Part shown: piece by piece, positions 3,935 through 33,894 of the stretch
Numbering within the stretch: the stretch's first letter is position 1
Layout of the letters: each line of letters opens with the position of its first letter
NCBI GenBank assembly: GCA_029561145.1
Contig: JAKQJM010000076.1
Coordinates: forward strand, 1-33,894
Length of the DNA stretch: 33,894 bases
Direction of reading: 5' to 3'
From: Pseudomonadota bacterium
GTDB lineage: Bacteria; Pseudomonadota; Gammaproteobacteria; Xanthomonadales; Rhodanobacteraceae
The notes under the pieces: generated by a model
Told to the model about the DNA's origin: nothing
Database searches by the model: none
The model's input: only the letters and a program-made list of their open reading frames with translations
Translations under genes and position numbers: made by a program

Positions 3935-4459
3935 TCAGGTACGCGGGGGGTACACGCCCTGAAGGGCGATATTGAAATAGAAGGTCAGGTAGGGCTGCAT
4001 GTTGTTGTGCGGCTGATCACCGCCGGCCGGCGCGAGGCTGGACGCATTCATCGCAACCAGGTTGAGGGCGCTCGTGAACGCGGTGGCATTTGCCGAGTTG
4101 GCAATTGACCGGTTGGGTGATGGTGCGTTGAGTTCGCCGAGATCGAGATCATGTGCGCGCAAGGTGTGCGTGTGGTTCGGGATTTCCGATTCGAGCAAGG
4201 TCACCGTCTCCACTCCCGATTGCTCGCCGAGATCGTGCAGCGAAAGCCCGGGACCCTGTCCCGGATGCATCACGGCGCGCCCTTGCAGGTCAGGCAGCGA
4301 GAAGTTCGATTTGCCATTGCCGCCGTAGGTCGTGCCGAGCAGCGAAAACAGCGCCGTGTTCTGCGACAAGGGCAGCAATTGTCCGTCGCACCATGCCCAG
4401 CCCCTCGGCGCGAAGTTGAACGGAAAGACTCGGATTTCCGCGACAAACGGATCAGCCAT
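3935..4459 (-). CDS. Phage tail collar domain protein (microcystin-dependent-protein family), paralogue 1
   Basis: The protein has 174 residues, full length for the family. The N-terminal tail collar domain (Pfam Collar) spans about residues 6-60: AEIRVFPFNFAPRGW, CDGQLLPLSQNTALFSLLG, TTYGGNGKSNFSLPDLQGRA. A His-x-His motif follows in EIPNHTHTL, then a variable insert, then the conserved end QPHNNMQPYLTFYFNIALQG. Collar domains form trimeric beta structures in tail fibres; cellular homologues of this short type are known as MdpB-like proteins and their role is unsettled. There is no signal peptide. AGGAG lies seven bases before the ATG. It is the third of three paralogues in a row and is separated by 87 bp from the one upstream. 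Confidence 0.93.
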   Translation of the reverse strand: MADPFVAEIRVFPFNFAPRGWAWCDGQLLPLSQNTALFSLLGTTYGGNGKSNFSLPDLQGRAVMHPGQGPGLSLHDLGEQSGVETVTLLESEIPNHTHTLRAHDLDLGELNAPSPNRSIANSANATAFTSALNLVAMNASSLAPAGGDQPHNNMQPYLTFYFNIALQGVYPPRT

Positions 4460-4546
4460 GACGATGCTCCTGGAAGGCTCGTGCCGCAGCGCGACGAAAC
4501 ACTGTCTGCGCGGCGCGATCGATGGATGGTTTGGACACGCTTGGCA

Positions 4547-5050
4547 TCATGTGGGCGAAGGAAAGATGCCGAACAGGGAAATGATGAAATCGACGCACAG
4601 GTAGGGCTGCATGTTCGTGTGCGGCTGGCTGCCACCGATATTGGAAACCGACAGGAAGTTGAGATTGGTGTCGGGTGCGTCCTGGATATACAGCAGGGCA
4701 CTGCCGGATTGGCCAAGCACCTTGTTCTGCGGACTGGTGTCCTGCGAAACGTTGATCGAGGCCAGCAGCGGGTGGCTGTGCGTCGGTATCTGCGCGGTCG
4801 TCAGCGTGATCTCTTCAGCGCCACCGGTTTCGGCCAGTGTGAATCCGTTGCCTTGGTGGATCGGCACGCGGCCGCGCAGATCCGGCAAGGCAAAGGTCGA
4901 TTGCCCGTCGCCGCCATACGTGGTGCCGATCAGGTTGAACAGGGTTTCGTTTTCGGAGATAGGCAGGAGCTGCCCCTCACAAAACATCCATCCCGCGGGA
5001 GCGAAGTTGCCCGCGAACATGCGTATTTCCCCGACGTAAGGCTGTGCCAT
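4547..5050 (-). CDS. Phage tail collar domain protein, paralogue 2
   Basis: The protein has 167 residues and the same architecture as its two neighbours: collar domain with GEIRMFAGNFAPAGWMFCEG, LLPISENETLFNLIGTTYGG, FALPDLRGRVPIHQG, then an HxH in QIPTHSHPL, a Ser/Asn-rich insert (about residues 103-140), and the closing SQPHTNMQPYLCVDFIISLFG. GAGGA lies seven bases before the ATG. Only 10 bp separate it from the stop of paralogue 3, so these two are surely co-transcribed. The insert between the HxH and the QPH motif differs strongly among the three paralogues while the flanks are conserved, as expected for a variable exposed face on a fixed scaffold. No signal peptide is visible. Confidence 0.93.
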   Translation of the reverse strand: MAQPYVGEIRMFAGNFAPAGWMFCEGQLLPISENETLFNLIGTTYGGDGQSTFALPDLRGRVPIHQGNGFTLAETGGAEEITLTTAQIPTHSHPLLASINVSQDTSPQNKVLGQSGSALLYIQDAPDTNLNFLSVSNIGGSQPHTNMQPYLCVDFIISLFGIFPSPT

Positions 5051-5587: not shown

Positions 5588-8500
5588 TTAGGGAATGATC
5601 GGTGCGGCGCAGGCGGCGCCGCCGGCGAAACCCATGGAATCGAAGGTCGCCGTCGGCGTGCTGACCAGTGTGTTTCGACTGCTCAGGTAGGCGATCACCG
5701 CGCCGGTGTTGGTCGCTCCGCCCGCATAGCCCGGCAGGCGCACGGTGCCATCGTTGCGTTGCCGTACGCGGACGTCGCCACCTGCCATCACCCCACCGAG
5801 TGAATGGGTGAACGTGTTGGACAAGGCTCCGCCACCGCCAAGATCGAAGCACAGGGCCGACGTGTTGCCGGGCCCGGTGATCGCGGACTGGGCGAGGATG
5901 CCGGCGATCGCATTGTTGAAGCTGTCAAGCTGTACGTCGATCGTGTTGCCGGTGATCGTCGTGTCGATCGTGCCGTTTCCGTCCTGGCCGGCCTGCACGA
6001 GGATCGCGCGCTGGGTTCCCGCGTAGACGATGTTGTTGTCGGTGATCGCGGCGCGCAGTGCACCGGCACCGGCCTGGAACACGGAAATCGCGTCCGTGGT
6101 TCGTCCGTTCGCGATGTTGATCGGCGAGTTGTTGCGCACGGCACCTTCCAATGTTCCGGTAGTCGAGAACGCTGCCTTGAGCAGGGTCACGGCGAGGAAA
6201 TCATTGCCGACGAAGCTGTTGCCGTTGATGTCGAAGGTCGACACGCCGTTGTTGGCACTGACCTGCACGCCGTCATTGTTGTTCGAGAGCGTCGAACTCA
6301 GCAGGCGCAGGACCAGGGTCGCGTTGTCAAAGCCATCCGCCACCACGCCGCCGCTGAAATTGTTGTCGACCGTGACACCGGTGATGTTGACCGTCATGTT
6401 TGCCGCTCCGCGGCTGCCGAACAGTAGTCCGCTGCCCAGCGTGCCGGCATTGAAACTGCCGCCGGTGAACGTGATCGTCGAGGCTGGCCCGCTCAAGTTC
6501 TGGATGTTCACGTTGTCGTCGCCGCTGCCCGTGATCGAGGTGGCGGTGATCGCATTCGTTCCGAACAGGTTGGTGAAATGCAGGCCGTCCTCGTCCGGCC
6601 CGTTGCCGAGGCCTGACAGCACGCTGTTGCTCAGGGTGAAGCCGGTGACGTTGATGCCGTTGATGCCTTGCTGGCCGCTGCTGGTCAGGTTCAGGCCGTT
6701 CAGGCTCACCGTCGAAACCGTGTCGAGATGGATCGCGGCGCTGCAGCCGGTATTTGCCCCGGCCACGGCGGCGCTTCCGCAAGGCGCACCGGCGGATGTT
6801 GCCGTATTGGTGAAGTTCATCTGCGCGAGACTGATGTTGGAGGCATTGACGAAGGACGCGCCACGGTTGCTGGTGCGCTGGATCGTTCCACCGCTGCCGG
6901 CCGAGCCCGTGCCGCTGACCGTCAATCCTCCACTACCGCCCGTGCCGCTGAGCACGATGCCGTTGGCCGGACCGGTCGCTGGCGTGCCGGCGCTGATGCT
7001 GCGGAAGTTGAGGCCGCCCGCACCGATCGTGGTACCTGTGACATTGATCGCCGTGGCAGTAGTCGTTGTCGCGGTGCTTGTCGTATTGGTCGCCGTGATC
7101 GTGCCGCCGCCGGTGGCGGAAAAGGCCGAATTGGCTCCGGTACTGAGGGTCAACGCGCCACTGAAGTTGATCGTGGCGCCGGTGTTGGTGGTCAACAGGA
7201 TGCCACTGCCGGTTTCTGCGATCGCTCCGCTGAGCGTCACCGTATCGCTGCCGCGGTTGGCGACGTTGACGGCATTGCCGCTGGTCGAATTGATCGCGCC
7301 AGGGAAGCTGACGTTGCCGTTGCCGCCATCGACGCGGAAGGCGGTTCCGGATGCGCCCGCGGGATCGATGATCTGCCCGCTCGTCGCCGAGAATGCGGTG
7401 TTGCCCGCGCCGCCGAACGCGTTGACCAGCGAGATTCCCGTTGTCGTGGAATTGACGCTCTGCACGTTGTTGAACGGTAGCGTGATCGATGCATTGCCGA
7501 TGTCGACCGCCGGTCCGCCACTCGAAGAAATGGAGCCGACGCCAGCGCCGACAGCGATGCGGAATCCGGTCCCGGCAGCAGCGTTGAGCGCGCCGGTCGA
7601 ACTGGCGCCAAGCCCGGTACCGCCATCGTTGAAGATGTCGAGATCGGTGAATGCGAGATCGCCGGTCACGTTTGACAGGATCACGCCGCCAGCCCCGGTT
7701 CCGTTGCCGGATACGCCAACCGCGGTGGTGCCGCCATTGACCTGATTGATCGGATTGCCCGGCGTGGCATCGAAGGTCGCGCCATTGACGAGAATGCCCG
7801 TGCCGACGGTATTGCCCGCGATCGTGTTGTTGTCGAACGCGGTGATCGTTGCGGTTCCGACCGTGCGTGTGACGTCGATGCCCGTGCCTCCCGCCGTGAT
7901 CGCGTTGTTCTGGATCGCGACCTGCTGCGTCCCGCTCGAGCCGAAATTGACATCGAAGCCCTCGGCGGTCGAACCGCGCACGGTGTTGCCTGCGATCGTC
8001 ACGCCGACATTGTTGGCCCCGGTCGCGGTCACATCGACGGCATTGTTGCCCTGCAGATCGAGGCCGCGGATTTCGACGCCGGTCCGGTTGCCCGCTGTGG
8101 CCGGCACCGAGACTGCGTCGGTGCCGCCGGCATTGATGCGCGGCTGGGTGCCGGCAGCGACCAGGGCGCCAAACGGAGCGACGTTCAGGCCGAAGCCCTC
8201 GCCCCAGAGACGCTGACCGTCCTTGAGCACGATGCCGCCGCTGAGCGGCGTGGTCGCGCTCAGGCCATTGAAGACGAACAGGATGTCGCCATTGCCCGAT
8301 GCGGCCTGCGCTGCAGCCAGCGTCTCGAATGCGTTGTTCGAGCGCCCGTCACTGCCGGCCGCGGGATTGTTCACGCTGGTCTCGTTGTCGATGTACCAGA
8401 CCCGCGGGCCGACCGCGATGTTGATCGTGCCGACGACGGTTCCGGGTGTCGGCGTGTTGCCGTCGGTGACCGTGTACGTGAAGCTGTCGGTGCCGACAAA

Positions 8501-11500
8501 ATTCGGCGCCGGCACGTAGGTGAACGCGCCACCCGCGTCGATCGAGAAATCACCGCCGTTGGCGCTGGTGCCGGATGCCGGCACCACACTGGGTGCGGAC
8601 GGTCCATCCGTATCGGTCGGGATCGATTTGGCCAGCGCGCTCTGTGCATCGCTGATCGAGACGAGACCGGGGATCGTTGCTCCGGCGACCTGCAACTGCG
8701 TGTTGCCGGCGGTCGAGTAGCTGATCGGATTGTTGGTCAGGACGGGCGGCACGTTGGCATGCGTGATCGCGATCACGAACGACTGCGTGGCCGAGACGTT
8801 GACGCCGCCATTGGCGGTGCCGCCATCGTCCAGTGCATGCAGCACGATCGTTGCCGTCGTCGTCCCGGCAGGAACGATCGCCGGCGTATAGGTCAGCACG
8901 CCGGTCGCCGACACGCTCGGGCCCGCCGCGAACGCGGTCGGTGCCGAATTGCTGTCGATCACGAAGCTGATGCTCTGCCCGCTTTCATTCGCGGGGCCGG
9001 TCGAGATCGCAGTGGCCCAGGGGTTGACCGTGACCGCGCCGGCATTGTCGAGCACGGCCTGATCGGCACCCTTGACGAAGCCCGGAATGTCGTTGATCGC
9101 GGTGACGTTGATGACGAAGGTCTGCACCGGCGATGTGTCGATGCCGCCGTTCGCCGTGCCGCCATTGTCAGACAGGGTCAGCGAGATCGTCGCCGTGCCG
9201 TCCGCGTTCGCCGCGAGGGTATAGGACAGGGTGCCTGTTGCCGATACGGTCGGCGTGGCGGCGAACAACGCCGGGTTGGTATTCCCGGTGATGTTGAAAG
9301 TCAGTGATTGTCCCGACTCATCGGCCGGCCCGGACGAGATCGCGGTGGCCCAGCCGATGACCGATTGCGCCGCGGCGTCTTCGAACACGGTCTGGTCGGC
9401 ACCCTTGACGAAGCTCGGCGCATCGTTGACCGAATTCGCGGTGATCGTTAGTGTCTGCGCGGCGCTCGTGTTGTTGTTGCTGCCGTTGTCGGTCAGAACG
9501 ACATTGAAGGTCGCGCTGCCGGAGGCGTTTGCCGCCGTCGTGAAGGTCAGCGTGCCGGTCGGCGAAATCGCCGGAGCGGCGCTGAAGCCGAGGCTGCCAC
9601 CAGTTGGCGTCACCGTGAAATTGAGTGTCTGCGCACCACCGTCGTTGTCGTTGATCGCGGTCGCCCAGGCGGCGATGGTCTGCGCACCGGCATCCTCGTC
9701 CACGCTGACCGCCGGGCCGGCGGTGAAGCTTGGAATCGTGTTGACGCCGACCACGCTGACGGTGGAAATCGCGATGTTGCTGTTGACCGCTCCGTCATTG
9801 GCGACGAAGTTGATTACGCGCGCGGTCTCGTTCGGTGCAGTCGAGGTATTGAGGTAGGTGACGCTGCGCAGCACGGCCTGGTAATTGGCGAGCGTGTCGC
9901 TGCCAGTCAGGCTGAGTATTCCGCCGGCATACGCAGCGGTGATCGCGGTGCCACCGGTGGTCGCGGCCAGGGTCTCGAGCGCGCCATCGAGCGGGTTGCT
10001 GATCGTCACCGTCGCACTGGCCAGGTTGGCGTTGTCGACATCGCTGATCGTGAGGCCCGTCGGGTTGACGATCGCGAGGGCCGGATCGCCTTCCGTGTAG
10101 GTCGCGGCGAAGTCGGTGCCGGCTGCCGGGCCATTGAGGTCGAGCGCCGGCGCGTCGTTGACTGCGCTGACCGTGATCACGAACGTCTGCGCGGGCGAGG
10201 TGTCGATGCCGCCACCCGCGGTGCCGCCGTTGTCGCTCAGGGTCAGGCTGATGGTCGCCGTGCCGCTTGCGTTGGCAGCTGGCGTATAGGTCAGCACGCC
10301 ACTTGACGAGATTGCCGGAGCGGCGCTGAACAAGGCGGCGTTGGTGTTGCCGGTGACGTTGAACGTCAGGGTCTGTGCCGACTCGTTGGCAGGGCCCGCC
10401 GAAATCGCAGTCGCCCACGGATTGACGGTCTGCGCGCCGGCATCCTCGGGCACGGTCTGGTCGGCGCCCTTGATGAAGCTCGGCGCGTCATTGACGGCGG
10501 CGACATTGATGACGAAAGTCTGCGCCGCGCTCGTATCGACGCCACTGTTCGCGGTGCCACCGTTGTCCGACAGGGTCAGCGTGATCGTGGCACTGCCGTT
10601 GGCGTTCGCCGCGGGCGTGTAACTCAGCGCACCGCTTGACGAGATCGCCGGGGCGACACTGAACAAGGCGGCATTCGTGTTGCCGGTGACGTTGAACGTC
10701 AGGGTCTGCGCCGATTCGTCGGCAGGTCCCGCCGAGATCGCGGTTGCCCAGACCGCGACGTTCTGCGCGCCGGCATCCTCGGCCACGTTCTGGTCCGGGC
10801 CTTTGGTGAAGCCTGGTGCGTCGTTGACCGAGGTCACCGTGATATCGAAGGATTGCGCAGGCGAGGTGTCGACGCCGCCGTTCGCGGTGCCGCCATCGTC
10901 GACCGCAACCAGCGTGATCGTCGCCGTGCCGTTCGCATTTGCGGCAGGCGTGTAGGTCAGGACGCCACTCGAGGACACCGCCGGCGGAGCACTGAACAAG
11001 GCCGCATTGGTATTGCCGGTGATGTTGAAACTGACGACCTGGCTCGATTCGTTCGGAGGACCGGCCGAGATCGCGGTCGCCCACGGATTGACCGTCTGTG
11101 CACCAGCGTCTTCGAGCACGGTCTGGTTCGGGCCCGCCGTGAAGCTCGGCGCATCGTTGATGCCGGTGACCGTGATCGTGAACGTCTGCGCCGCCGAGGT
11201 ATCGATGCCACCGTTGGCCGTACCACCATTGTCGCTGAGGCTCAGCGTGACGATGGCGCTGCCATTCGCTGTCGCAGCCGCCGTGTAGGTCAGCACGCCA
11301 GTCGGCGATACCGCCGGCTGCGCGCTGAACAAGGCGTTGTTGTTGTTGCTGACCGTGAAGCTGAGAGTCTGTGTCGCCTCGTCGGGCGGGCCGGCGGAAA
11401 TGCCGGTGGCCCATGGATCGATGGTCTGCGCGGAGGCGCCTTCAGTGACAGACTGATCCGGCCCCTTCGTGAAGGCGGGGACGTCATTGACGCTGCCCAC

Positions 11501-22351: not shown

Positions 22352-25147
22352 TCAGTTCGGCAGCTCGAACCCATCGACGAATATGACGTCCGGCAGCGGC
22401 ACTGCATTGCACGACTGCACGACCAGGTCGTCGATGTACCAGCCGTGCGGGACACGTCCTGCAGAACTGTCGGTGCCGAGGCGGAAGCGGAAACGGACGG
22501 TCTGGCCCGCCAGCGTGGTCAGGTCGACCACCGAACGCAGGTAGGCTTGCGGATCGCCACACCACGCATTCAGCCCGGACAACGGATTCTGGAACGTCGT
22601 CGCGATCGGGCCGTTGTACGGATCGGTCAGCATCGCTGCGGCGCCGACCTGGGTGAAGGTCGTGCCGCCATCGGTCGACACCTCGAGGATGCCACCGTCG
22701 TAGCAGCTCGCGCCGTTCGATTCGATCGTCTGGTCACTCCAGAAGATCAGCGACAATGGACTCTGGCCAACCGGCAACGCGACTGCAGGCGATACCAGGC
22801 GCTGATCCGAAAGCGAGAGGACGTCCTGGGCCAGGTACGACTTCGTGCCGCCGTGTGGACGTGCCGCCGAGATCGCCCAGTTGCTGGGGCCCGAGCTGCC
22901 GGAGCCGAGCGTCCAGGCCGAGTTGTCGCCCTCGAAATCCGTCGAGTAGAGCGCGGTGCTGGTCGATCCGATCGGGCAGTCGCCGGGCAGCGGCACGGTC
23001 GTGAACGAGAAGGCGCTGGCGTCGGGACCGGTTCCGCAGATGTTGTTCGAACGCACGCGCCAGTAGAGCGTGGCGTTGGACGGCAAGTCGGAAGTCGGCA
23101 CGTGGCTGGTGCCGGTCACCGTGGCGGTATAGGTCAGCGGTGGTGCGAAGCCCGGCTCGTTGTCCACTTCGAGGATGTACTGGGCGCCCTGGCTCGATGC
23201 CGACCATGTGAAGGTCGGACGCACCGGCACGATGGTCGCATTGTTCGCCGGGCTCGAAAGTGCCGGGGCCGGCGGTGCGGCTGTCGCGATGCTGAGTCCG
23301 AGCGCCGTGCTCTGCACGATCGCGCCCGGGGTCGAGGTGCCCGTGATGCCGATGACCGAACTTCCGGCGGCGACGCCGGCGGTCGTGACCGTCACCGTGC
23401 TCGATCCCGCGGGGGCTACCGGATTGGTGCCGAAGCTCACGCTCGATCCGACCGGGTTTCCGCTCGCGGCGAGCGTGACCAGTTCCGAGAAGCCCTGGAA
23501 CTGGCCCACATTGATCAGGTAGTTCGCGTTGTCCGGTGCACACACCGATACATTGCCCGCGACCGGAACCAGCAGGTAGTTGGTGCCGACCAGGGTGCGA
23601 TCGGTAAAGACGTCCGGCGTGCCGCCGCGGTCATCGGACCAGAGGTAGTGCGCACGACCGTCCTCGTCCTGCAGTTGCTGGTCATAGTCGCCGTGGTAGC
23701 ACGTCGCGAGCGAGGTATCGAGCACGACGGGGCTCGATGTATCGGTCAGGCGCACGCTGGGTTGTGTCCAGGTCGCGCCATTGTCGAACGACGTACGCGA
23801 GTAGTAGTCGTAGCTCAGGTTGTTCGGGTCGAGCTGACGACTGTAGTAGCCCACGGTGACCTGGCCGGCCGCTCCCACCGAAACAGTCGGTTGGTACTGG
23901 TCGCGCGTCGTGCCGTCGTCGTTGATGCGGACTTCGGCGCTCCAGGTGCTCGTGCCGGGGTTGTAGCGCCGGTAAAAGACGTCGATGACATCGCCCGTGC
24001 CGAAGCCATCCGGATCGTAGGCATATACCGTGTGCAGGTAGCCGTTGCGAAACACGATCTGCGGCGAGGGCAGCAGGCGGATGTTGCCCTTGATGGCCGG
24101 GCGCGAGCACGAGGTTGTCGCCGCGGCGTCGCGCGGGTTGATCTGGTTCGTCATCGCCGGAGTGAGCGTCGTGTAGCTGACGCCGCCATCGGTCGAACGA
24201 AGGATTGGCACCTCGATGTTTCCGTTCGGGTAGCCGGTCGGTGGCATCCACTTGAGCCAGGTGACGTAGACGTCGCCGTTCGGCGCGATCGTCGGCCATG
24301 CGCCCTGGTTGCTTTCGCCGGCCGGGCTGATCGCCAACTGGGTGGACCAGGTCGCCCCGGCGTTGGTCGAATAGATGCTGTGGATGCGGCTGCCGGTGCC
24401 GAAGTCGGTCCAGACGATGTAGATGCGGCCGTAGAACGGGCTGGTCGGCTCGTTGTCGATCGCCATGATTTCCTTGTCGTCGTTGCCGCTCGCGAGTTGG
24501 CTGACGAAGACAAAGGTCTGGCAGTCATCGTCGGACCGGAAAAGGCCGAGGCCGCCGCTGCGCAAGGCAGCGTAGTAGAACTTGCCATCCTGACGACGCC
24601 AGACCAGGCTCGGATCGCCCGAATCGCTCGAACTCAGCGCCCCACGATCAACCCAGGTGAGGCCGCCGTCGGTCGATCGCGAGAAGCCCGAGAATCCCTG
24701 CGCCTGGGTCACGCCGTGGAACGAGTCGTTGTATGCCGCGCACAACGTGCCCGTGACCGGATTGCGCTCGATCGAAGTTTCACTCTGCGTGCGCGTGGCG
24801 CCGGTATCACCGGTCGGATTGCTGACATTGACGTCGGTACCTGGCTCCAGATAGGGCAGCGCCAATCCGTAGGGCTGCTCAGACTCGACCTGGCCGATGA
24901 AATCGGCTTGCCGACCGCAGGCCTTGGCCAGGAAGAAAAGCAGGCCGTCCATCATGCGCGCCTTGCCTGGATCATCCAGCAACGCGCAGGATTCCGCGGT
25001 CACATACGGTGCGGCGTTCGCTGCCGCTTTTGCAGCGGCCGCATCGACATCCGCCGCCGCGGCGGCTGCGCCTCCGCTCAGCGCAAACCCAAGCAACGCG
25101 CCAAGCACTCCTCCCACATGCACCCGTCCGAACGGATATCGGCTCAC
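22352..25147 (-). CDS. Exported BNR/sialidase-like protein with C-terminal DVIFxxGFE tail
   Basis: The protein has 931 residues. It starts with GTG, eight bases after GGGGAG. A signal peptide with a long alanine run covers about residues 1-32. The first 560 residues carry Asp-box motifs of six-bladed propellers: RSTDGGLTW (157-165), STNAGATW, RSTDGGVSY and SFDNGATW, as in sialidase/BNR proteins. I do not see a full sialidase active-site set (Arg triad, Tyr/Glu), so enzymatic activity is not claimed. After a Ser/Val-rich region and an Fn3-like domain (SPANNATIVPVRPTFTWSAS), a C-terminal jelly-roll-like domain (STDFEGDNSAWTLG, GWYIDDLVVQSC) also contains an Asp box (VSTDGGTTF). The protein ends DVIFVDGFELPN, a tail shared with two other proteins in this window. 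It is predicted to be secreted. Confidence 0.88.
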   Translation of the reverse strand: MSRYPFGRVHVGGVLGALLGFALSGGAAAAAADVDAAAAKAAANAAPYVTAESCALLDDPGKARMMDGLLFFLAKACGRQADFIGQVESEQPYGLALPYLEPGTDVNVSNPTGDTGATRTQSETSIERNPVTGTLCAAYNDSFHGVTQAQGFSGFSRSTDGGLTWVDRGALSSSDSGDPSLVWRRQDGKFYYAALRSGGLGLFRSDDDCQTFVFVSQLASGNDDKEIMAIDNEPTSPFYGRIYIVWTDFGTGSRIHSIYSTNAGATWSTQLAISPAGESNQGAWPTIAPNGDVYVTWLKWMPPTGYPNGNIEVPILRSTDGGVSYTTLTPAMTNQINPRDAAATTSCSRPAIKGNIRLLPSPQIVFRNGYLHTVYAYDPDGFGTGDVIDVFYRRYNPGTSTWSAEVRINDDGTTRDQYQPTVSVGAAGQVTVGYYSRQLDPNNLSYDYYSRTSFDNGATWTQPSVRLTDTSSPVVLDTSLATCYHGDYDQQLQDEDGRAHYLWSDDRGGTPDVFTDRTLVGTNYLLVPVAGNVSVCAPDNANYLINVGQFQGFSELVTLAASGNPVGSSVSFGTNPVAPAGSSTVTVTTAGVAAGSSVIGITGTSTPGAIVQSTALGLSIATAAPPAPALSSPANNATIVPVRPTFTWSASSQGAQYILEVDNEPGFAPPLTYTATVTGTSHVPTSDLPSNATLYWRVRSNNICGTGPDASAFSFTTVPLPGDCPIGSTSTALYSTDFEGDNSAWTLGSGSSGPSNWAISAARPHGGTKSYLAQDVLSLSDQRLVSPAVALPVGQSPLSLIFWSDQTIESNGASCYDGGILEVSTDGGTTFTQVGAAAMLTDPYNGPIATTFQNPLSGLNAWCGDPQAYLRSVVDLTTLAGQTVRFRFRLGTDSSAGRVPHGWYIDDLVVQSCNAVPLPDVIFVDGFELPN

Positions 25148-25322
25148 GATTCGTACTCCCCTGATGGCCCCAAAGCGACAAGCAACGCTGCCAACAGTAG
25201 CCCAGCATGGGCCCTGTTGCCTAGTTCCACAGATGGAGTGGATCCACCCTGCGACGTATCAGCGGGGGAGTGGCATCGGGAACGGTCGTTTCCGCCGCTT
25301 CGCCGGCACATCCGCCGTGCAA

Positions 25323-26174
25323 TCAGTCCCGCCCCTCGCAATCGACCGCGGGCAATGCCTGGCCCGAGAATGCCTGACGCAGGATTTCCTTTTCGAGGCG
25401 GGTGTAGATGTTGGCGTGAACGAGCTCGGGGTGCGGCGCGTAGCTCCAGTGCAGGTCCGGCACGGGGTTTCGGCACAGGGCGTCGGCAAGATGGGCAGTG
25501 GACGCACCGCTGTCGCCGGCCGAAGCGAGCAGCAAACGCGCGCGGATGCCGGGCGATCCTTGCAGTCGCGTGCCCGCTTCGCGCCACCATTGCTCCGCGT
25601 TCCACCACAGGCTCGGGTCGAGCGCGATATACGTATCGAACAGGTCTGGCTGCAGGAACAGCGTCTCCACGACGAACAGCCCGGCCAGCGACTCGCCGAT
25701 GATCGCCGTCTCGTCGCCGACCCGGTAGAACATGCGGATCCGCGGCATCAGCTCGTGTTCGATGAATCCGCGGAAGTTGGCTGACCCGCCAACCACGGGC
25801 GCGATTTCGCGGTCGCTCGCGACATCGGTCGGCCCGGTCAGGTCGCGTCGTCGTTCGGTGTTCTCGATGCCGACCAGCAGCATCGCCGGGATCTCGTCCT
25901 GCTCGATCAGCGCATCGAGCGTGGCCGCGAGATGCGGGAAATCCTCTTTCTCGCCGCCGTCGAGCATGTACAGGACAGGATAGAGGACCTCCGCCTTGCC
26001 GTCGTAGCCGGGCGGAACATGGACGTTGACCACGCGCGTCTCGGACAACAGGGTCGACGGAATGCGCAGGGTCAGGTGCGGCGGCACTGATTCATCGGCG
26101 ACGGATGTCCCGCCGTGCAGCATGCAGCAAACCATCCATGATCCGGCAAGAATGCGACGAATGGAGGAATGCAT
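25323..26174 (-). CDS. Exported serine esterase, Fes/IroE-like alpha/beta hydrolase
   Basis: The protein has 283 residues; AGGAG lies seven bases before the ATG. A signal peptide is likely (GSWMVCCMLHGGTSVADES), with Cys residues near the cleavage zone, though no clean lipobox is seen. The fold is that of the esterase D / ferric enterobactin esterase family: YPVLYMLDGGEKEDF, FIEHELMPRIRMFYRV, then the nucleophile elbow IIGESLAGLFV (Ser162), the acid in ALDPSLWW (Asp186) and the His in LVHANIY (His253). Members hydrolyse siderophore or simple esters; no siderophore gene is nearby, so the substrate is open. It lies 30 bp downstream of a small secreted protein gene, probably in the same transcript. 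Confidence 0.88.
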   Translation of the reverse strand: MHSSIRRILAGSWMVCCMLHGGTSVADESVPPHLTLRIPSTLLSETRVVNVHVPPGYDGKAEVLYPVLYMLDGGEKEDFPHLAATLDALIEQDEIPAMLLVGIENTERRRDLTGPTDVASDREIAPVVGGSANFRGFIEHELMPRIRMFYRVGDETAIIGESLAGLFVVETLFLQPDLFDTYIALDPSLWWNAEQWWREAGTRLQGSPGIRARLLLASAGDSGASTAHLADALCRNPVPDLHWSYAPHPELVHANIYTRLEKEILRQAFSGQALPAVDCEGRD

Positions 26175-26204
26175 CTGTTTTCTCCTGTGTCCGAGGGATC
26201 GCCT

Positions 26205-26798
26205 TCAGGATTCGAAACCGTGCGCGAAGATCAGGTCGGGCAACGCCGGCGTGGTGATGCCTGCGCCACTGTCCTCATAGCACCAGCCTTCGATGGTCGC
26301 CGGGAATCCGAGCGGAGCGGACGTCGACAAGGCCATCCAGCCATAGTTGATCAGGGTCGTTCCGTCATTGCGAAAACGCAGTCCGAGATAGCCCGATGTG
26401 CCTGCTTGCCACGCATGGGTGTTGCCGGTGAAGGCAGCGCGCGTGAACAGCGAATTTGCGTCGATCAGGGTACTCGCGCCCAGCACCGCGTAGATGTCGC
26501 CGCTGCTGGCAACGCCCGCGCCGCCCGTGCTTTCCGGTCCCCAGTAGAAGCGCAACTGCCCGCTCGGGTTCGTGCTCGCTGCAGCGTAGATGTCGATGTC
26601 GAATCCCGGTACCGTCGCCTCGGTGATTCCCGACACGCCACTGACCAGATTGACGTAGAGCCCCTCGGTAGTGGCCGGTACCGACAGCGCCGTGGTCGGA
26701 CCACACACGATCGCCGCCTGCGCCGAACTGCCTGTGAGGCACAGGATCAGGGCAGTTGCGACACGCCGATGCGCGGCACCGTGGAATCTTCCTCGCAT
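26205..26798 (-). CDS. Small secreted protein ending in DLIFAHGFES
   Basis: The protein has 197 residues, counted from an ATG that gives a clean signal peptide (HRRVATALILCLTGSSAQA, cleavage before AIVCG). The frame is open further upstream, but that part is arginine-rich and unlike a real N-terminus. The mature protein is beta-rich with Gly/Ser/Thr and aromatic residues (VPGFDIDIYAAASTNPSG, GTSGYLGLRFRNDG, TLINYGWMALSTSAP) and a likely Cys pair. I recognise no named family; the LGLRF-x-N and YGWM-x-L strands resemble the repeated beta sandwich of PEP-CTERM-type proteins. It ends with DLIFAHGFES, matching the tails of the neighbouring BNR and delta-60 proteins. The esterase gene follows after 30 bp. 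Confidence 0.8.
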   Translation of the reverse strand: MRGRFHGAAHRRVATALILCLTGSSAQAAIVCGPTTALSVPATTEGLYVNLVSGVSGITEATVPGFDIDIYAAASTNPSGQLRFYWGPESTGGAGVASSGDIYAVLGASTLIDANSLFTRAAFTGNTHAWQAGTSGYLGLRFRNDGTTLINYGWMALSTSAPLGFPATIEGWCYEDSGAGITTPALPDLIFAHGFES

Positions 26799-26942
26799 GC
26801 GTCTGCAACCTCGCCTCAGCCGTGTTGCTGTCGATCTTCCGCGAAGGCCTCCGACATATCCAGCCTCCAGCCTGACTGGTTGAAGGTAATGCAGATCAGG
26901 TGGCACAGCCGTGCGGCGTATCGGGCGCGGCGGTGCCGGCAA

Positions 26943-27296
26943 TCAGGGCGTCATGGCTTTCGCGGCTTGCTTGCGTCCCGCAAGGTTCGTCACGTATTCG
27001 ACGGTGTTGCCCTTGCCTGCGTCCTGGAAGGTGATGCGCGTGCCACTGGGATCGCGGCTGAGCGTAATCAGGCCGCCTTCGGAAAACATGCACCGGCCAG
27101 GATGAAGGCCATCATTGAACACTTCGATGCAGTCGCTGACTTCAAAGTCCTCGGCCTGGATCTTGACGACCTGGGTATCCCCATACGCGGTGATGCGCGC
27201 GCCGTTGCCGACAGTTTCGACCGTGACCTGGTTGTTCGGGCCGAAGCGCCCGGCAGAAAGCACCGCAGCAGCGACGAAGACGGTGGTAACAAGCAT
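26943..27296 (-). CDS. Small secreted protein, unknown
   Basis: The protein has 117 residues. The ATG at 27296 has AAGGGGG about eight bases upstream; the open frame before it is not used. A short signal-like segment (LVTTVFVAAAVLSAG) opens it. The mature part is beta-rich with DTQVVKIQAEDFEVSDCIEV, a Cys pair about 20 residues apart that could form a disulfide, and a lysine-rich end (GRKQAAKAM). No family is recognised. It is flanked by secreted proteins on the same strand, with gaps of 144 bp downstream and 170 bp upstream, so it may have its own promoter. Confidence 0.65.
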   Translation of the reverse strand: MLVTTVFVAAAVLSAGRFGPNNQVTVETVGNGARITAYGDTQVVKIQAEDFEVSDCIEVFNDGLHPGRCMFSEGGLITLSRDPSGTRITFQDAGKGNTVEYVTNLAGRKQAAKAMTP

Positions 27297-27466
27297 GGAT
27301 GATCCCCCTTTGATCAATGGATGCCCCGCCAACCTTACCGCGATTTGCGCCTGTCATTTTGCTGCGATGCAGCAACAAGGCGGAGGCGAGGTGCCGGACG
27401 GGGTTGCCGATGCCTTGGGACGGAGGTCCAGTCCGATGCGCGCGCGCAGAAAAAGCGCGCGATCCC

Positions 27467-28789
27467 TCATTCGAATCGGCCGTCGAAGATCAGGTCGAAA
27501 CGCGCCCGCACGATGCTGACGTAGTCATCGCCGCTGGAATTGTCCTCGAAGAACGTGCGACCGAAGATCAGCATGCAGCCATCGGCCGCGTCGTGGCCGA
27601 TGGCATGCATCTGGTCGTAGTCGCCGGATTGGCCGATGCCTGCCGGGTCGGCAATCGTGTAGCTGTTCCAGCCGTTGTGGCCAAACGCCATGTCGAGGCC
27701 TCCATCCGCAAACGTGCGGAGCAGGGTGAACTGGGTGCGATGCCCGAACGGCGCGGAAAACGGAAACGAGATCGCGCCGACGATGATGCGGTGGTTGGGC
27801 AACAGTTCGAGCGCATCGCGTTGCTCGAAGAACGGATAGATGCTCGGCTGTCCGGAAAGGCTGTAAAGCCTAAGGCCGAAGTTCGGAACGATCTGGCCAT
27901 GCGTATCGAGTCGCGTGATCAGGATGCAGCAACTGATGAAGCTGTTGCTTCCCTTGCCCGAGACCACGAGAGATCCGTCGACGTCGAGCGCCAGTGCGTT
28001 GGCGATCGTGCCGTTGAAATCCGGTGGCGGTTCCATGTCGACGAAGCCATCGTCGTTCCAGTCGGGATCCGGCGAGCCGTCCACGCGCAACTGGGCAACG
28101 ACAAGGTTGGGGCCATGCGTGTTGCCGCGCGAGCCACCGACCAGGATGCGCCCGTCCGGACGCACCACGAGCGCGTTGACGTCATGCCACGCGTTCGCGG
28201 GAAGGTTCATCACGACGCTGCCCGCAGTGCCGAAGGTCACGTCCGCCGCGCCGACACTGTCAAAGCGATACACCTTGCCCTGCTGTCCCTCGCGCCCGCC
28301 CAGCACGAACCGACCTGCCGAATCCCGCGCGAGATCGGCGGCGTCGAATCCATCCGCCGGCATCGGACCCTGGCCGAAAGTGGGCTCCGTCGTGCCGTTG
28401 GCGAGCACGTGACGCAGGCATCTGCTCGACCACAGGTAGGCGCCACTCGCGCCATCGCCGATCAGTCGAACATCGCGTTTCTGCCCGCAAGCCGGAAGCG
28501 TGATGCGACCTGTTCCGTCGCTGCCGAAGCTCGTGTCTGCGGCCCCGCTGCGCCAGGCGCGCCCGACCCAGACACTTCCGTCATCGAGCGGTGCGGCCCA
28601 GATGAAGCGTCCGTCGGCGAATACGTCGAGATCGCCGGTCGGCTGCGAAGAGTTGCCGGGCGTCTGTTGCGGTCGAAGAATGACGACCTGACCGTTCGTG
28701 CCGAATGCAGGATCGACGTCGCCCTCGAGGGCGCAGGCCTGCGACGCAGTGAAGCTCAGCAGGCAGAAGAGGATCGGTGGTATGCGCAT
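27467..28789 (-). CDS. Exported delta-60 repeat protein with C-terminal DLIFDGRFE tail
   Basis: The protein has 440 residues; GGAG lies six bases before the ATG, and the signal peptide is MRIPPILFCLLSFTASQACA. The mature protein is built of delta-60 repeats: VDPAFGTNGQVVILR, ADTSFGSDGTGRITL, ADVTFGTAGSVVMN with NALVVRPDGRILVGGSRGN, and LDMAFGHNGWNSYT. These modules of about 55-60 residues alternate a D-x-x-FG-x-x-G strand and a DGRI-x-V-G-G strand and are thought to form a propeller. Function is unknown in this family; most members are secreted or surface-exposed. The protein ends DLIFDGRFE, the same pattern as two neighbours. The 5' side opens into the 700-bp repeat-bearing gap. Confidence 0.87.
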   Translation of the reverse strand: MRIPPILFCLLSFTASQACALEGDVDPAFGTNGQVVILRPQQTPGNSSQPTGDLDVFADGRFIWAAPLDDGSVWVGRAWRSGAADTSFGSDGTGRITLPACGQKRDVRLIGDGASGAYLWSSRCLRHVLANGTTEPTFGQGPMPADGFDAADLARDSAGRFVLGGREGQQGKVYRFDSVGAADVTFGTAGSVVMNLPANAWHDVNALVVRPDGRILVGGSRGNTHGPNLVVAQLRVDGSPDPDWNDDGFVDMEPPPDFNGTIANALALDVDGSLVVSGKGSNSFISCCILITRLDTHGQIVPNFGLRLYSLSGQPSIYPFFEQRDALELLPNHRIIVGAISFPFSAPFGHRTQFTLLRTFADGGLDMAFGHNGWNSYTIADPAGIGQSGDYDQMHAIGHDAADGCMLIFGRTFFEDNSSGDDYVSIVRARFDLIFDGRFE

Positions 28790-29080
28790 TCGGAACTCCA
28801 GTGCGAATCGACGGATGACACGAACGCCGGATCGTGATCGATCAGGGCACGGATGCGTCCGGTAAACAGACAGGTTTCCCGCCCGTGGAAGCAACCGGGA
28901 GGCACAAGTCGCAGTATTCATGGACCCAGCCCGTAGGTACCGCAAGGGCGGCTGGCGGTTGCACGTGATCCGGGAGTGGCACTGCCGGATCGATGAGGAA
29001 GCGGAGCTTACCCGCCATTGGCGATCCTCCTGGGCTCAGGAGACATTCCGGAAAAGGGAATTCGCACGAGCCTGCATGCC
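28790..29080. other. Intergenic stretch without a supported gene
   Basis: Together with the repeats that follow, this forms a 698-bp gap between the delta-60 gene and the DUF5916 gene. It should hold the promoter of the delta-60 gene. Short open frames here have poor codon use and no protein pattern. A short hairpin (CTCCTG-GGCT-CAGGAG) lies just before the repeats. Confidence 0.5.
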
Positions 29081-33410: not shown

Positions 33411-33894
33411 TGGACACCTGATGGTTAGGTGCGCTGGGCTTCGAACTCGATGGGAGAGCGGTAGCCGAGTGCGGAGTGTAAACGCTGTTTGTTGTAGAAA
33501 TCGATATAGCTGCGTACCGCCGATCGCAGTGTCTTCTCGTCGCTGAAGGATTGCCGGTGGTACATGTCCGATTTCATCGACTTGTTCCACGATTCCATAT
33601 GCGCGTTGTCGGTCATGCGGCGCGGTCGGTTCACGCTCTGTACCAGGCCGACCTTAGTCAGCATTTGTCTGAACTCTGCGGCCAGAAACTCGACGCCCCG
33701 ATCGCTGTGAAAGAGGGTGCCGGGCTGGGGTTTGCGATGGCGTAGGGCCGAGGCCAGGGCACGGGCGGTCAGGCGAGCACTCTTTTCGGATCCCAGTGAC
33801 CAGCCTACTAGGCGGCGCGAATGTCGATCCATGATCGTTGCCAGATAACGCCACTGACCTGCAACCTTCAGATACGTCACATCGCCCACCCAGA
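33411..33894 (-). mobile_element. IS3-family insertion sequence, one end only
   Basis: The element is recognised by its transposase. The likely terminal inverted repeat starts at TGGACACCTGATGG (33411), 14 bp beyond the transposase stop, after an A-rich run. The other end, orfA and the target duplication are outside the window, so the exact boundary is an estimate to within about 10 bp. Confidence 0.7.
33425..33894 (-). CDS. IS3-family transposase (OrfB), C-terminal part
   Basis: About 156 residues are visible; the N-terminal half runs off the right edge. This is the integrase core (rve) of an IS3-type OrfB with all three acidic residues of the DDE triad: Asp in WVGDVTYLK, Asp in [10 protein letters not shown] and Glu in [14 protein letters not shown]. 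The usual IS3 end [19 protein letters not shown] is present. The visible part has no frameshift or stop, so the copy may be active. It catalyses excision and insertion of the element. It is transcribed toward the small membrane gene at 33385 and could influence its expression. Confidence 0.93.

Follow-up and report, generated by a model that had tools for sequence, protein, structure and literature searches.

A shared strand-like tail on exported bacterial proteins and a putative catcher protein that may dock it

The shared tail is real and genome-wide

Why should three neighbouring, apparently exported proteins that are otherwise unrelated end in nearly the same nine residues? We asked this of a 33,894-nucleotide stretch of DNA (the window) from a gammaproteobacterial genome, in which a sequence-only reading had noted the shared C-terminal tail, considered it unlikely to be chance, and proposed that it could be a recognition tag for secretion or surface attachment or the last strand of a common small fold. 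The three tails and their proteins, all on the minus strand, are:
22352..25147, minus strand: tagged protein 1, a 931-aa BNR/sialidase-like protein with a choice-of-anchor-J-like domain and an apparent signal peptide
22364..22390, minus strand: tag 1, D-V-I-F-V-D-G-F-E, followed by L-P-N and stop
26205..26798, minus strand: tagged protein 2, a 197-aa protein without a known family (start at the ATG before the apparent signal peptide; the open frame begins at 26942)
26211..26237, minus strand: tag 2, D-L-I-F-A-H-G-F-E, followed by S and stop
27467..28789, minus strand: tagged protein 3, a delta-60 repeat protein (start at the ATG before the apparent signal peptide; the open frame begins at 28945)
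27470..27496, minus strand: tag 3, divergent, D-L-I-F-D-G-R-F-E and stop

The observation holds: the tails are where they had been placed, and the three proteins match different families, namely BNR plus a choice-of-anchor-J-like domain (28.7 bits, below the cut-off of 30), no family, and delta-60 repeats. To test whether the motif is enriched at C-termini, as the earlier reading would require, we searched the whole genome (3.6 Mb, 149 contigs) for I-F-x-x-G-F-E, which returned 26 matches against none for the reversed pattern. In 23 of the 26 the frame closes 0-14 residues later, one runs off the end of its contig (C10), and two lie near the start, behind an apparent signal peptide; signal peptides were judged by eye throughout. 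A binomial test gives about 1e-33 if the contig-edge case is counted as terminal and a frame of 450 residues is assumed. Tag 3 (GRFE) departs from the strict pattern and is not among the 26; variants such as IFxxGFD, IFxxDFE, IFxxSFE and IFxxRFE also exist, so that all counts given here depend on a strict pattern that leaves them out and includes a few chance matches. In two further genomes of the same genus, 52 of 59 matches lie within 25 residues of a stop (one of them, at locus L215, shows no signal peptide and may be chance), three lie behind an apparent signal peptide, three are inside longer proteins and one is a chance overlap. The motif is therefore not strictly C-terminal, as 5 of 85 matches in the three genomes (2 of 26 plus 3 of 59) sit behind an apparent signal peptide, and tandem tags occur at loci L109, L111 and L116. 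The glycine codon uses all four third bases in the window's genome (A7 G4 T12 C3), which speaks for conservation of the protein and led us to reject a mobile DNA repeat.

The tagged proteins are diverse. Of 129 tagged open frames scanned at E 0.001, 20 match choice-of-anchor Q, 5 delta-60, 3 choice-of-anchor J, 1 choice-of-anchor D and 3 aminopeptidase LapA, while 3 were tyrosyl-tRNA ligases, taken as chance hits. Because these families are unrelated, we rejected the reading that the tail is simply an internal strand of the clients themselves. A crude rule, applied to a set that contained such chance hits, assigned a signal peptide to 56 of 80 frames with a closed N side. In the C-terminal cases few residues follow the motif (0-21 in 128 tails, often none), and, read by eye, no transmembrane helix or basic end follows it.

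Distribution of the tag

In the family of the window (59 genomes, 26 genera), the pattern count is 16 or more in 11 genomes of four genera and 3 or fewer in the other 48. In a sample of 369 genomes of the class only two, both of this family, exceed 5. A stricter pattern run over a collection of named genomes returned at least 117 stretches, 80 of them listed with titles; among these 80, C-terminal tags lie in Dokdonella, Tahibacter, Rudaea, Marinicella, Wenzhouxiangella and other Lysobacterales records, and in Acidobacteriota/Thermoanaerobaculia. Some of the 117 are plainly chance matches (for example Clostridium, Halorhabdus).

The tail resembles the first strand of a jelly-roll domain

The lead came from Anaerolineae, in which the same string does not end proteins but opens a domain of about 205 residues, D-L-I-F-A-D-G-F-E-S-G-N-L-S-A-W-S..., often repeated. 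In two Sedimenticola MAGs a tagged gene is followed at once by a gene for a protein with an apparent signal peptide that is homologous to this domain but starts only at C-S-T-A-A-W-S or C-S-T-S-A-W-S. At locus L102 the stop of the tagged gene ends at 5612 and candidate start codons of the next gene lie at 5596, 5623 and 5635. The one product scanned also carries S-layer homology (SLH) domains (PF00395, 59.3 bits). This suggested that the tag is strand 1 of the domain, donated in trans to a protein made without it, which we call the catcher.

As the Anaerolineae domains had been picked by the motif itself, we assembled an unbiased set by profile. Of 22 unsplit copies with a visible start, counted by eye, 18 have F-E and 2 F-D at the matching place (e.g., ALFRDSFETAKLGSW, HADNFESGDLTAW), mostly followed by the conserved Trp (for example ALFRDSFETAKLGSW, FLRDDFETGDLSAW, NLHADNFESGDLTAW, SIFADSFDNGDTSAW), and two differ; the residues before are mostly hydrophobic but seldom exactly the I-F of the tag. 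In a structural model of an unsplit Anaerolineae domain (pLDDT 94.3; first ten residues 79), residues 2-5 (L-I-F-A), within the tag, form a strand. The catcher of the window's genome was also modelled confidently (pLDDT 91.2). The predicted folds of both resemble lyase- and lectin-type jelly rolls of the concanavalin-like lectin/glucanase fold rather than an Ig-like fold. Among the nearest solved structures by Foldseek are X122, Cip1 and glucuronan-lyase type domains (2zzj, E 1.8e-8, TM 0.65; 8q2a; 3zyp), at TM 0.48-0.67 and about 12-16% identity; these are complete domains, and X122 domains are beta-jelly rolls without a known ligand (PMC10916295). Matches to clostridial neurotoxin binding domains reflect the general fold. 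No Pfam or NCBIfam family covers the single-domain catchers scanned, and only a weak sequence match was found among solved structures (4c1w, E 0.025).

Catcher genes co-occur with the tag

We next asked whether a partner gene co-occurs with the tag. A first profile of the domain (A2), run on 23 genomes of the family, found short proteins matching it from position 14 or later in 9 of the 11 tag-rich genomes, and in 12 tag-poor ones nothing but one match at E 0.05 (genome G001); this profile missed the g16 catcher, which the later profiles A5 and A6 found. A profile built from more of these proteins recovered the catcher in exactly the 11 tag-rich genomes and in 0 of the 48 others (Fisher p 3.6e-12, although the 11 genomes represent only four genera and the 59 are not independent points). 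In the class sample, in which at most 8 candidates per genome were scored and absences are accordingly weaker, 3 of 369 genomes have a catcher: the two tag-rich ones and G136, which has 1 pattern match and 7% contamination. We also examined 36 genomes (38 handles), chosen mostly because they carry tags, with 3 for contrast (L164, L080, L095), without counting the tags of the two Sedimenticola genomes; sampling was MAG-heavy. Of these 36, 28 have a profile match, including G445, which has only 1 strict match. Of the 32 with 19 or more pattern matches, 26 have a catcher and 6 (G439, G444, G447, G448, G454, G455) have none detectable, also with two further profiles; all six are MAGs by title. A contrast genome (G461) gave a weak match at E 0.2. 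In some Acidobacteriota and in G458 further matches lie in long proteins with the unsplit domain.

The organism of the window is probably a relative of Dokdonella: its catcher is 71% identical to that of an unclassified gammaproteobacterial MAG and 53-54% to two Dokdonella ones, and a genome of the same genus (G030) has one 77% identical to that of D. immobilis.

The break point is compensated between tag and catcher

Most gammaproteobacterial tags stop at or soon after GFE, and their catchers begin just before the conserved Trp. In contrast, tags of Acidobacteriota continue with S-G-D-x-S-A-W-S-x-T-x-P or the like and mostly stop there, and their catchers begin after that segment (S-L-D-V..., almost directly behind the signal peptide). 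Trp follows GFE in 10 of 10 acidobacterial tags and in 0 of 39 Lysobacterales/Marinicella tags; this count used 48 of the 117 loci, those whose listed title placed them clearly in Acidobacteriota (10) or Lysobacterales/Marinicella (38, with 39 tags), leaving out 37 loci without a listed title and the other 32. Conversely, Trp is present on 30 of 31 distinct gammaproteobacterial catchers and on 1 of 7 acidobacterial/deltaproteobacterial ones, that one within the apparent signal peptide (for locus L291 the profile match starts late, and its start was read by eye). The exception among the 31 is the catcher-like protein of genome G037, which lacks the Trp region and itself ends with a tag-like stretch. 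Tag plus catcher therefore adds up to about one whole domain in both phyla although the cut differs, and we regard this as the strongest evidence, since a passively co-inherited gene would not predict it. Gammaproteobacterial catchers also carry two cysteines (invariant in nine aligned catchers) that four acidobacterial and two unsplit rows of a further alignment lack, possibly a staple for the new N-terminus; L327, an acidobacterial catcher outside that alignment, does have Cys near its start.

Genomic surroundings of the catcher

In the window's genome (the window is contig C29) the catcher lies on contig C104, with the following genes:
10383-11132, minus strand: catcher, 250 aa
9813-10337: gene B, following the catcher, ending LPVSLQNFSVE
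8351-9751: gene C, following gene B

The order catcher-B-C recurs in nine loci of the family and in loci L301, L303 and L315, and C is present in 10 of 11 tag-rich and 0 of 48 tag-poor family genomes. In the Marinicella, Acidobacteriota and Chromatiales loci B and C were not seen beside the catcher. What the loci share is surface-polysaccharide-type genes: glycosyltransferase-like genes in the family, and sulfotransferase-, acyltransferase- and MBOAT-like genes in Marinicella and Acidobacteriota, all names that rest on protein starts read by eye. A set of 15 loci was inspected in this way, in two of which (L302, L311) our gene caller did not call the catcher. No chaperone or usher genes were recognised by eye in the inspected loci. 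In a Chromatiales MAG the catcher is followed on the same strand by a protein ending STSIFSSSFE, a putative metalloprotease by its HExxHxxGxxH motif.

A putative tag-catcher system

Taken together, we consider a tag-catcher system the most probable explanation, and hold it with fairly high confidence. In this view the tail D-x-I-F-x-x-G-F-E is the first beta strand of a concanavalin-like jelly-roll domain, and the rest of the domain is made as a separate exported protein. Client and catcher would be exported separately, and the tag of each client would insert into the gap left in the catcher and complete its fold (donor-strand complementation), so that one catcher would dock dozens of unrelated exoproteins. 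Because catcher genes lie beside surface-polysaccharide-type genes and one type of catcher carries SLH domains, the catcher most likely holds clients at the cell surface or in its polysaccharide coat. Our analysis establishes the genome-wide tag, its likeness to strand 1 of the unsplit domain, the catcher without that strand, the strong co-occurrence, the compensated break point and the tag-catcher gene pairs in three MAGs, whereas export is inferred from signal peptides, and physical binding, location and surface docking as the purpose are likewise inferences from sequence and predicted structure. The interpretation of the sequence-only reading is thus partly supported: the tail is a shared tag on apparently exported proteins with a co-occurring partner gene, and it looks like a strand of a common small fold, but the first strand rather than the last, and of a separate protein encoded elsewhere in the genome. 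The partner recovered by our jelly-roll profiles is a predicted jelly roll, not a sortase or protease.

The best surviving alternative, which is less likely but cannot be excluded, is that the catcher is a periplasmic or secretion chaperone that holds the tag strand in transit and releases it, as FimC does for pilins. It follows the same strand-complementation logic, and the nine family catchers examined have an apparent signal peptide and no added anchor domain; however, the SLH domains of the Sedimenticola catcher and the polysaccharide-type neighbours point outward. An unlikely alternative is a conventional C-terminal sorting or processing signal, read by an unknown secretion machine or protease (for example a type II secretion receptor), with the catcher a co-inherited accessory. 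The choice-of-anchor Q, J and D domains among the clients, which elsewhere precede sorting signals, and the 6 of 32 tag-rich genomes without a detectable catcher might favor it, yet it does not explain why the tag resembles strand 1 of the catcher's own domain or why tag length and catcher start shift together, some tags lie behind an apparent signal peptide, and the helix and basic end of sortase/exosortase-type signals are absent. That the tails are functionless debris of truncated jelly-roll domains is very unlikely, since, despite their resemblance to the start of such a domain and the internal or near-N-terminal position of some, tag-rich genomes hold 19-91 pattern matches in the 36-genome set and 16-49 in the family, with varied synonymous codons in the window's genome, against chance-level counts in the 48 family genomes without a catcher.

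Comparison with known systems

PEP-CTERM/exosortase, GlyGly-CTERM/rhombosortase and MYXO-CTERM/myxosortase likewise place a short C-terminal homology region on many otherwise unrelated exported proteins, many-to-one with a partner protein and patchy across species, and PEP-CTERM is also linked to exopolysaccharide genes (PMC1569441, PMC3237569, PMC11980579). Here the tag has no transmembrane helix or basic end and can also lie near the N-terminus, and the partner found is a predicted jelly roll that lacks the strand the tag resembles. In chaperone-usher pili a fold lacking one strand is completed by a strand from another protein; here the acceptor would be a concanavalin-like jelly roll instead of an Ig fold, serving dozens of unrelated exoproteins and not a polymer of like subunits. 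SpyTag/SpyCatcher (PMC6539128) is an engineered domain split into a short peptide tag and a protein catcher, whereas the present pair is natural and genome-wide, and no isopeptide bond is suggested, since no Lys is among the invariant residues listed for the mature part of nine catchers. The system would work like donor-strand complementation and like an engineered split-domain tag, but belongs to neither family. In cohesin-dockerin systems many enzymes carry a small docking module that binds a common receptor; here that module would be one strand of the receptor's own domain. Literature searches listed no paper describing this tag, as far as titles and the openings of abstracts show.

It is likely, on present evidence, that this is a previously undescribed, widespread protein-docking system of Gram-negative bacteria, in which a lectin-like domain has been split at different points in different phyla, its first strand has spread as a portable tag onto dozens of exoproteins, and the remainder serves as one common surface receptor encoded beside polysaccharide genes. 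If so, it would be a protein-sorting principle without an enzyme or membrane anchor, a strand-swapping tag read by fold completion. It gives an immediately testable function to a set of uncharacterised genes, would let one predict the docked exoproteome of Dokdonella, Tahibacter, Rudaea, Marinicella and thermoanaerobaculian genomes from sequence, and offers natural tag-catcher pairs (short and long split) for biotechnology. Beside the tagged genes themselves, a kinase-like family (12 loci) and a second small family (7 loci) recur; as regulatory neighbours they would not explain recognition of the tag.

Next, we examined the surroundings of the tagged genes. At the tagged loci L073, L077, L078, L098, L125, L131, L150, L177, L179, L193, L212 and L213, a gene family that by eye resembles Ser/Thr kinases lies beside tagged genes in 12 loci, and a second small family, sigma-factor-like by eye, does so in 7 loci, which might point to joint regulation of the clients. 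In a subtilisin-like protein (by eye) at another tagged locus, L132, the tag lies in the middle of the chain rather than at an end.

Further observations concern the catcher loci. Protein B, encoded beside the catcher at 9813-10337 of L256, the catcher locus of the window's genome, and its homologues in the catcher loci L258-L264, L301, L303 and L315 have their own conserved C-terminus, LPVxLQxFSx[ED] or close to it, which may represent a second kind of terminal strand or signal. A catcher-like protein without the Trp segment, at locus L283 of genome G037, ends DDVLFWQNFELDQQ, a stretch that is itself tag-like and could allow self-completion or chaining. At locus L292 of genome G453, a catcher is followed by a dockerin-like stretch, although its match to PF00404 reached only 13.8 bits, below the family cut-off of 22.9. 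In addition to its main catcher, the genome of Dokdonella immobilis (G435, locus L329) holds two further catcher-like proteins.

Two regions of the window contain genes that could be tentatively assigned by resemblance alone:
3935-5050, two neighbouring genes whose starts look like those of phage tail-collar / microcystin-dependent proteins
33425-33892, an open frame at the contig end resembling an IS3-type integrase
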